35,775 bases of DNA, taken from NCBI GenBank assembly GCA_012840405.1, contig DULM01000148.1, positions 1 through 35,775 on the forward strand. Reading direction: 5' to 3'. Below, piece by piece: positions 3,414-8,409 of this stretch. The stretch is from Syntrophomonadaceae bacterium (GTDB lineage Bacteria > Bacillota > DSM-12270 > Thermacetogeniales > Thermacetogeniaceae). Position numbers and translations under genes: made by a program. Numbering within the stretch: the stretch's first letter is position 1; every line of letters begins with the position of its first letter. A model generated the notes under the pieces. The model made no database searches and was not told the DNA's origin. It saw nothing but the letters and a program-made list of their open reading frames with translations.

Positions 3414-3613
3414 TGCAAGATGAATTGATAAACCCTGCGATGTGCGTGGGAAACTGGGAGTTTTGAGCCAACACCAAAACTATTGGAGCCTGGACTCTGG
3501 TTGTGGCATGTAGGCCTTGGTGACACAAGGAAACATAAAGCAACCAGGAGGGCACCACCGTGCTAGAGCCAGGTTCAGAAACACCGGGTCCCACGGCATT
3601 TGTGGGGTTTTTT
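3414..3613 (+). ncRNA. ssrS: 6S RNA (SsrS/BsrA type)
   Basis: Intergenic, downstream of aspS as for B. subtilis bsrA. Closing stem CCCTGCGATGTGCGTGGG (3433-3450) pairs with CCCACGGCATTTGTGGGG (3590-3607), with a central internal loop; interior CCTGG/CCAGG-type pairings; T6 tract 3608-3613; own promoter; ~200 nt. Confidence 0.85.
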
Positions 3614-6561: not shown

Positions 6562-6996
6562 ATGGAGGTGATGAAAATAAGCTCACCGGGGAAGTTCGAT
6601 GAAACAGTTGTAGATAGAAACGATGCCCGGGAGAGAATGAATGAGCAGCAGCGTAAAAAGATGCAGCATGAGTTTAAAATATATATGGAGCAATACTTTA
6701 AACGCACACTAGGAAAAAGTGTTACAACCACAAAAATTAATATAGTAGAGGATATGCTAATCATTAGGGGTGAAGGTTTTCTAACTGAGTCTGAAAAGTT
6801 TATCGTTAGGACGCCCCGGGGGAAGGATGCAATCAGAGCTTCTAGAATGCATGTTGTTCAGCAGCACATAATTGACAATCTGCCTTATTTCGAGAAAAGG
6901 TTAGGGGCAAAAGGAATTCATCAGACTTATGAAGTAGAGCCTGAAAACGATTTTTGGATGCATGTCATTGTTTTTGATCGTGTTTTAACAGTTTAA
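6562..6996 (+). CDS. DUF2294/MpsC-like protein
   Basis: EFKIYMEQYFKRTLGKSVTTTKINIVEDMLIIRGEGFLTESEKFIV....VRQ-type helix...YEVEPENDFWMHVIVFDRVL resembles DUF2294 (YbcI/MpsC) proteins. Confidence 0.7.
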   Translation: MEVMKISSPGKFDETVVDRNDARERMNEQQRKKMQHEFKIYMEQYFKRTLGKSVTTTKINIVEDMLIIRGEGFLTESEKFIVRTPRGKDAIRASRMHVVQQHIIDNLPYFEKRLGAKGIHQTYEVEPENDFWMHVIVFDRVLTV

Positions 6997-7053: not shown

Positions 7054-7281
7054 AACAATTAATAAGTGGTGGTTTACGGAGAAACCTGCGGGTGGCTCCA
7101 AAGAAAGACCAATGTTTTTACGGTGAGGCTTGAGTCCACTGTGAAAATATTGGTCTTTATTTGTAATAGGATGTTTAAACAATTGCTAAGTGGTAGTTTA
7201 CGGAGAAACTTGCAGGTGGCTCCAAGGAAAGACCAGTGTTTTTATAGTGAGGCTATGGTCCACTATAAGAAATTGGTCTTT
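7054..7281 (+). repeat. Two tandem ~105-nt structured repeats (124-bp period): candidate tandem cis-regulatory RNA
   Basis: Copy 1 7054-7158 and copy 2 7178-7281 share AACAATTnnTAAGTGGTrGTTTACGGAGAAACyTGCrGGTGGCTCCAArGAAAGACCArTGTTTTTAyrGTGAGGCT...GTCCACT...TTGGTCTTT. Each has a 21-22-bp terminal hairpin; differences are compensatory. Confidence 0.85.
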
Positions 7282-7353
7282 CTTTGTTTTATCCCAGATT
7301 AGGGTTATCCTGGGTAAATCCAATAATAATAAAAAACTAAGGGGGAGTATGTA

Positions 7354-8409
7354 ATGTCAACAATGAAGGCTTTGGTTTATCATGGTCCAGAAAAGATCAG
7401 TCTCGATGATGTTCCTATGCCGAAGATTATTGAGCCGGATGATGCAATAGTTAAGGTGACCCTTTCAACTATCTGCGGGACTGATATCCACATCTGGCAT
7501 GGTGGGATGCCTGAGGTACAGCCACCCAGAATTCTTGGTCATGAATTTTGTGGAGAGGTTGTAGAGGTAGGCCCTGCAGTGAGGAATGTCAAGGTGGGGG
7601 ACCGGGTTGCTGTTTCCTGTGTTACCCAGTGCGGTGAGTGCTTCTACTGCAGACGGGGGTCTAATTATGCCCACTGCACAACCGGTAGTTGGATCTTCGG
7701 TTATATGATCGACGGCTGTCAGGCTGAATATGTCCGGGTGCCTCATGCTAATCTGGGTTGCCATAAAATTCCGGAAGGGCTAACAGAAGACGATGTTCTG
7801 CTGGTTGGTGACATCCTGTCTACAGGTTATTTCGGTGCTGAAAATGCCGAGATCGAACCTGGGGACACAGTAGCAGTGATGGGAAGCGGCCCTGTGGGTA
7901 TGTGCGCCATGATGGCCGCCCGCTTGTGGGGCCCTGCAAGAATCATCGCAGTTGATATGAACCAGCAACGGCTCGATTTTGCTGTCAAACAGGGATATGC
8001 AGATATGGCCTTGAACTCTGCGGAAGTCAATGTTCCCGAAGCGATCAGGGATCTGACCGATGGCCGCGGTGCCGACAGGACCATTGAGGCTGTAGGTGTC
8101 AAGGGAACCTTTGATCTGGCTCTGGAGGCTGTACGGCCTTGTGGAAATGTCTCGATCATCGGTGTATTTGAACAGCCGCAGGAAATTCCTATGAACAAGA
8201 TGTGGATCAAGAACATCAAGATCAGCATGGGTCTCGTCAATGCCAACCGGATTCCTGAGCTGATCAATCTGATTCAGGCTGGAAAGATCAATGCCAAGCC
8301 TCTCTACACCCATCGCAAACCGCTGAATGATCTCCTCGAGGGATATGATGTCTTCGGCAACAAGAAGGACAACGTCATCAAGTGGCTTATCACACCATAT
8401 GAGAGATAA
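7354..8409 (+). CDS. Zinc-dependent alcohol dehydrogenase (MDR superfamily)
   Basis: MKALVYHGPEKISLDDVPMPKI, CGTDIHIWHG, GHEFCGEVVEVG, CGECFYCRRG, GDTVAVMGSGPVGMCAMMAARLWGPARIIAVD. Confidence 0.93.
   Translation: MSTMKALVYHGPEKISLDDVPMPKIIEPDDAIVKVTLSTICGTDIHIWHGGMPEVQPPRILGHEFCGEVVEVGPAVRNVKVGDRVAVSCVTQCGECFYCRRGSNYAHCTTGSWIFGYMIDGCQAEYVRVPHANLGCHKIPEGLTEDDVLLVGDILSTGYFGAENAEIEPGDTVAVMGSGPVGMCAMMAARLWGPARIIAVDMNQQRLDFAVKQGYADMALNSAEVNVPEAIRDLTDGRGADRTIEAVGVKGTFDLALEAVRPCGNVSIIGVFEQPQEIPMNKMWIKNIKISMGLVNANRIPELINLIQAGKINAKPLYTHRKPLNDLLEGYDVFGNKKDNVIKWLITPYER

Follow-up and report, generated by a model that had tools for sequence, protein, structure and literature searches.

Two tandem RNA units occupy the gap between mpsC and adh

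The window analysed here, a 35,775-nt stretch of DNA from a Syntrophomonadaceae bacterium, carries an mpsC gene followed by adh with a non-coding gap in between, and we asked what occupies this gap and whether it could control adh. The gap holds two tandem units of a conserved structured RNA (7062-7290), which have a spacing of 124 and share 84% identity over 94 nt (7054-7147 versus 7178-7271); the whole window genome contains only these two copies. Each unit has a 5' domain of two helices, P1 and P2, and a 3' hairpin, P3, with a U-rich tail (Table 1). The fold z-scores were -7.4 for copy 1 and -6.4 for copy 2, with no equally stable fold among 200 shuffles, and the reverse strand of copy 1 scored -3.5. 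A 78-aa ORF (7066-7302) overlies both units and has no Pfam or NCBIfam match; we therefore took it to be spurious.

The initial annotation of this region had proposed tandem copies with a period of 124 filling the gap, and a 22-bp hairpin in copy 1 with a counterpart in copy 2; both claims held as described, the hairpins corresponding to P3. It missed that each unit is also structured in its 5' half (7062-7111 and 7186-7235), which competes with the hairpin, and that the units are not local repeats, the RNA being present in other genera and families. It had also described the apical loop as partly conserved; the conserved part is the P1/P2 domain and not mainly this loop.

Table 1. Features of the mpsC-adh region of the window, and genes that follow DUF2294 at other loci
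Feature	Position or locus	Strand	Remarks
MpsC/DUF2294 gene	6562..6996	+	144 aa, pI 8.8; proposed trans-acting factor (RNA binding inferred)
Copy 1 antiterminator (P1+P2)	7067..7111	+	Covariation over 94 units; unconstrained minimum-energy nascent fold
Copy 1 P1, outer	7067-7070/7108-7111		UGGU pairs with ACCA
Copy 1 P1, purine mismatches	7071-7072/7106-7107		
Copy 1 P1, inner	7073-7075/7103-7105		UUU pairs with GAA
Copy 1 P2	7078-7081/7096-7099 and 7084-7086/7091-7093		GGAG/CUCC and ACC/GGU
Copy 1 terminator hairpin P3	7104..7164	+	Stem 7104-7125/7137-7158, with U-rich tail
Copy 2 antiterminator	7191..7235	+	Layout as copy 1; UGGU 7191-7194 with ACCA 7232-7235
Copy 2 terminator hairpin P3	7228..7290	+	Stem 7228-7249/7261-7281, with U-rich tail
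adh, zinc-dependent alcohol dehydrogenase	7354..8409	+	351 aa; ADH_N and ADH_zinc_N; proposed controlled gene
PEP carboxylase after DUF2294	L203, L204, L224		L204 from N-terminal sequence only
Na+-dependent bicarbonate transporter Sbt_1 (SbtA) after DUF2294	L185, L193, L217		
PurE/PurK after DUF2294	L183, L189, L190, L198, L218		
Biotin carboxylase after DUF2294	L180, L184		L184 from N-terminal sequence only
PEP carboxykinase after DUF2294	L230		
2-oxoacid:ferredoxin oxidoreductase after DUF2294	L187		

The RNA is absent from Rfam and present in other genera

The initial annotation had suggested a comparison with Rfam and a covariance-model search of other genomes, and both were run. No Rfam 15 family reached its gathering threshold for the units in the window, the 371-bp gap or 26 related loci; the weak sub-threshold matches were mostly to miRNA-type hairpins. 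A confident Rfam match, one of the outcomes that the initial annotation had named as refuting its claim, was not obtained. BLAST against related genomes showed that further genera carry the element, immediately 5' of adh. A pattern scan of named genomes found it in Thermacetogenium, Syntrophaceticus schinkii Sp3, Syntrophomonas MAGs and other Clostridia MAGs, and also returned chance matches without the hairpin. Covariance modelling recovered about 95 further units, mostly from Thermacetogeniaceae and Syntrophomonadia. A first model (R1, built from 16 units) was positive in 29 of the 63 genomes from the class of genome G079 and in 21 of the 399 from the phylum; a second (R2), made with 94 units, increased the latter number to 34. 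Matches in G397 (VanY) and G102 (VWA) are likely to be due to chance.

Two loci carry three or four units each (L154 2613-3716 and L140 2148-3100), with tandem attenuators from mpsC to adh and one more before mpsC. At another (L122 2256-2351) a third unit lies 3' of adh and the next gene is convergent.

Covariation supports both the 5' domain and the hairpin

In the alignment of 94 units, 25 of the 28 pairs showed compensatory changes, 91% of cells were paired (78% after shuffling), and the covariation score was 0.425, compared with 0.209 after shuffling and at most 0.118 when the partners were slid by 1-3 columns. The P3 stem alone had compensatory changes in 13 of its 15 pairs, and nearly all 94 units have the P3 hairpin with a U-rich tail. 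The loop of P2 varies in length and sequence, while the purines of the internal loop are strongly conserved.

Because this alignment had been fitted to the model, we added a test of P1 that is free of it, in which all positions after the 5' GGURG anchor were compared with all positions before the 3' ACC anchor. The top antiparallel run of three paired +5..+7 with -3..-5, which is the inner helix of P1, and the diagonal extends outward through two purine·purine positions into GGU:ACC. One of these mismatch positions is G·A in 78 of 94 units; at the other, A·A occurs once where 8.5 cases were expected (shuffling, p 0.0001). The earliest sequences had suggested an H-type pseudoknot (GGUUU/AAACC with GGAG/CUCC), which was rejected, as GGUUU/AAACC fails in several relatives and the nested P1/P2 covaries.

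Antiterminator and terminator are mutually exclusive

The ACC that pairs in P1 is also the base of the 5' arm of the P3 terminator, and P1 and the terminator are therefore mutually exclusive. Across the 94 units this ACC never changes, although the arm varies elsewhere; we attribute the invariance to the ACC serving both structures. Further support came from 26 distant DUF2294-linked units, in which the shared base triple co-varies (U-A-U, C-G-C, A-U-A), as UUGGC..GCCAA..UUGGC, UUGGA..UCCAA..UUGGA and UUGGU..ACCAA..UUGGU; pairing was found in 21 of the 26 on the antiterminator side and in all 26 on the terminator side. One member of this set (L201) was corrected by eye, and six of the C-G-C units come from one genus.

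Folding of the nascent chain gave the same picture. The unconstrained minimum-energy fold was the P1+P2 antiterminator in both window copies (-15.0 kcal/mol for copy 1), and it flipped to the terminator once the 3' arm of P3 had emerged. Of the 94 units, 85 formed the GGU:ACC pairing in the nascent fold, against 35 when the interior was shuffled, and 90 had the ACC inside the terminator in the full-length fold. The units thus satisfy two criteria for an intrinsic-terminator attenuator: a stable hairpin followed by a U-rich tract lies upstream of a co-directional gene, and the antiterminator excludes the terminator, as seen from the common ACC, the covariation of P1, the co-changing bases and the folding switch. 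The window hairpins, the U tails of which are imperfect, escaped a simple terminator scan.

The RNA is linked to genes encoding MpsC/DUF2294

The protein encoded upstream of the window units scores 79.4 bits against PF10057 (Pfam gathering score 23 bits) and so qualifies as a member of the MpsC family. Across the 399 genomes, 54 of 63 R2 matches have a PF10057 gene within 500 bp (chance about 0.0005), at a median gap of 61 bp, and 35 of the 37 PF10057 genes that were checked in those genomes adjoin a match. The usual layout in Syntrophomonadia is unit, mpsC, unit, adh, and one locus (L130) has a decayed mpsC flanked by two units. RNA and PF10057 also co-occur: among 63 genomes the RNA is found in 29, PF10057 in 28 and both in 26, and among 399 genomes the numbers are 34, 113 and 32. 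The corresponding Fisher tests (p ~5e-12 and 3e-17) ignore phylogeny, which affects the locus-level adjacency tests less. The RNA occurs without PF10057 clearly in G158, at a contig end in G105, and as weak matches in G102 and G451.

As an independent test we turned to the 30 loci that scored highest for PF10057, picked regardless of the RNA. These gave 14 R2 matches at E<=0.0015, almost all of them immediately next to the gene; 13-14 of the 30 loci carry a unit, whereas 128 kb of control loci gave no R2 match below E 0.2. By eye, the same pattern of a unit beside DUF2294 was seen at further loci (L187, L189 and L203); no recognizable unit was found at the DUF2294-carboxylase pairs L180 and L184. 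A c-di-AMP riboswitch lies just upstream of one DUF2294 gene (L176 1266-1397).

PF10057 is named after mpsC of Staphylococcus aureus and has no assigned function; we found no description of a function for DUF2294, or of this RNA, in the literature searched, from which most subscription papers were absent. A structural model of MpsC (pLDDT 77) gave no PDB match at E<=0.001 and no known RNA-binding fold was recognized in it, and sequence and fold searches of the PDB with MpsC returned nothing usable. The alpha-beta-beta order suggested an internal duplication, for which HHalign gave no support (E 0.29). The basic pI of 8.8 is compatible with RNA binding, which has not been shown, and says no more than that.

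A proposed DUF2294-dependent antitermination model

The sequence analysis establishes that the two structures exist and exclude each other, and that the RNA is linked to DUF2294. We interpret the RNA as a new transcription-antitermination element whose factor is probably DUF2294, and give this reading a probability of about 0.62; RNA binding, the signal and the direction (ON or OFF) all rest on inference, without any experiment. Each unit would be a transcription attenuator, with regulated readthrough in vivo likewise inferred. As polymerase leaves mpsC, the nascent RNA would fold first into the P1+P2 antiterminator. If nothing holds P1/P2, the 3' arm of P3 would capture the ACC from P1, the intrinsic terminator would form and adh would remain untranscribed; a factor holding P1/P2 would block the base of the terminator and allow polymerase to continue into adh. 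The best candidate for this factor is the MpsC/DUF2294 protein, whose gene lies immediately upstream and which may act in the manner of BglG/LicT-type proteins. It would then act on its own mRNA as well as on the downstream gene, many relatives having a unit before mpsC, and the two window units in series would provide a tighter block.

The initial annotation had also claimed selection on RNA structure, which is supported by the 94 units with their compensatory changes and a covariation score above the controls. Its claim of a cis-regulatory attenuator before adh is supported too, although regulation itself is inferred from sequence; the proposed aptamer was not shown. We favour a protein-dependent antiterminator over a metabolite riboswitch because the RNA is so closely linked to the DUF2294 gene.

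Such a riboswitch is nevertheless the best surviving alternative, albeit an unlikely one. On this view a small molecule or ion would bind directly to P1/P2, which would act as an aptamer in competition with the terminator, and mpsC would be merely one of its targets. P1/P2 is indeed compact, with strongly conserved internal-loop purines, and overlaps the terminator directly, as in ON riboswitches; moreover, some units precede genes far from mpsC (the ABM-domain genes at L126, L137 and L156). Against this, most matches adjoin a single protein family regardless of the downstream gene, almost every genome in which units lie far from mpsC has that gene elsewhere, and the P2 loop is variable. There are no ligand-binding data.

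Alternatively, DUF2294 might bind the RNA and promote termination, like PyrR or TRAP, so that the unit before mpsC would serve negative autoregulation. RNA-binding regulators commonly show negative autoregulation, and units do occur on both sides of mpsC. However, it is the antiterminator that holds the conserved non-canonical positions, and binding there should favour antitermination; we regard this possibility as remote. We give still less credence to a duplicated bidirectional terminator or mRNA-stabilizing hairpin without regulation. The strength of the P3 hairpin, its U-rich tail and a weak score on the opposite strand speak for this view, but it does not account for a 5' domain that covaries and is conserved across families, for the invariant ACC in an otherwise variable arm, or for antiterminator and terminator bases that change together in distant units. 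A repetitive or mobile palindromic element, which the tandem arrangement in the window and at L140 and L154 might suggest, can be practically ruled out, since the window genome holds no more than two copies, the copies diverge with pairing kept, and placement is strictly gene-linked, not scattered through unrelated contexts as the initial annotation had said would refute its claim.

Comparison with known antitermination systems

The closest working likeness to the proposed DUF2294-dependent antiterminator is the bgl system of Escherichia coli. The ribonucleic antiterminator (RAT) site of BglG, LicT and SacY is likewise an antiterminator hairpin, interrupted by internal loops, the 3' side of which overlaps the 5' arm of the terminator, as in bglGFB (PMC9678765). 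In the bgl operon terminators flank the antiterminator gene bglG and precede the target, and BglG binds RNA overlapping each terminator (PMC9678765), a layout that the order unit, mpsC, unit, target resembles. The new element differs in being longer, in its P1/P2 layout and in its partner gene, which encodes DUF2294 (PF10057) and not a CAT-RBD/PRD antiterminator; moreover, the window has no match within 3 mismatches to what we take to be the RAT consensus. We therefore do not place it in the bgl/RAT family, as both sequence and protein differ.

ANTAR sites also form an RNA structure exclusive with a terminator (PMC3369936). They consist of two small hexaloop hairpins (see PMC8934654), whereas P2 is one variable-loop hairpin closed by P1, and membership was rejected on this ground. 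T-box leaders share the terminator/antiterminator switch and a GGUGGNxCC-like string in the antiterminator, and were rejected because there was no Rfam T-box match and no room for a Stem I or specifier loop. We class the element as an RNA attenuator family in its own right, one not represented in Rfam 15, and its partner protein as a candidate for a new antiterminator class; this offers a testable function for a widespread family (PF10057 in 113 of 399 genomes) that has had none.

Downstream genes point to inorganic carbon

In most loci the gene after the unit is adh or another dehydrogenase; some Syntrophomonadia targets encode a short-chain dehydrogenase, which is not of the same family as the zinc enzyme. 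Genes with an ABM domain (antibiotic biosynthesis monooxygenase-like) away from mpsC are preceded by a subtype of the unit (L157 in addition to the three loci above). At the PF10057-chosen loci, the gene after DUF2294 often uses or moves CO2 or bicarbonate (Table 1), which suggests control of inorganic-carbon use, where known RNA-level regulators are few. Other followers are not obviously related to CO2, namely DUF4914, a Na+/sulfate-type symporter, K+ transport and an amino-acid permease. DUF4914, for which no PDB relative was found, follows DUF2294 and a unit at L199, L201 and L219 (the last from N-terminal sequence).

In S. aureus, mpsC adjoins the bicarbonate transporter genes mpsAB, and mpsA expression is lower at 5% CO2; deletion of mpsC gave no growth phenotype, and mpsC is dispensable for MpsAB activity (PMC6689103). 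Given the downstream genes together with this neighbourhood and CO2 response, CO2/bicarbonate status is a reasonable guess for the signal across the family; it is inferred, and its relation to adh is unknown. A bolder reading, which we consider no more than possible, is that DUF2294/MpsC is a new family of RNA-binding antiterminators answering to CO2/bicarbonate, or to a C1/redox signal closely linked with it, and controlling, via this RNA, carboxylases, bicarbonate transporters and dehydrogenases, the latter in syntrophic acetate and fatty-acid oxidizers. In the window lineage, the RNA element would govern the oxidation of alcohols or aldehydes, in anaerobes living near the thermodynamic limit.

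Three further observations concern neighbouring elements. A HigB-like toxin gene lies near a divergent unit in a Syntrophomonas-type genome (L135 2018-2347). Moco/tungsten riboswitches occur near two mpsC-adh loci (L133 3263-3382; L134 157-276, - strand). The window itself also carries a 6S RNA (RF00013, 100 bits) at 3429-3612 on the + strand, upstream of a phenylacetate-CoA-ligase-like gene.
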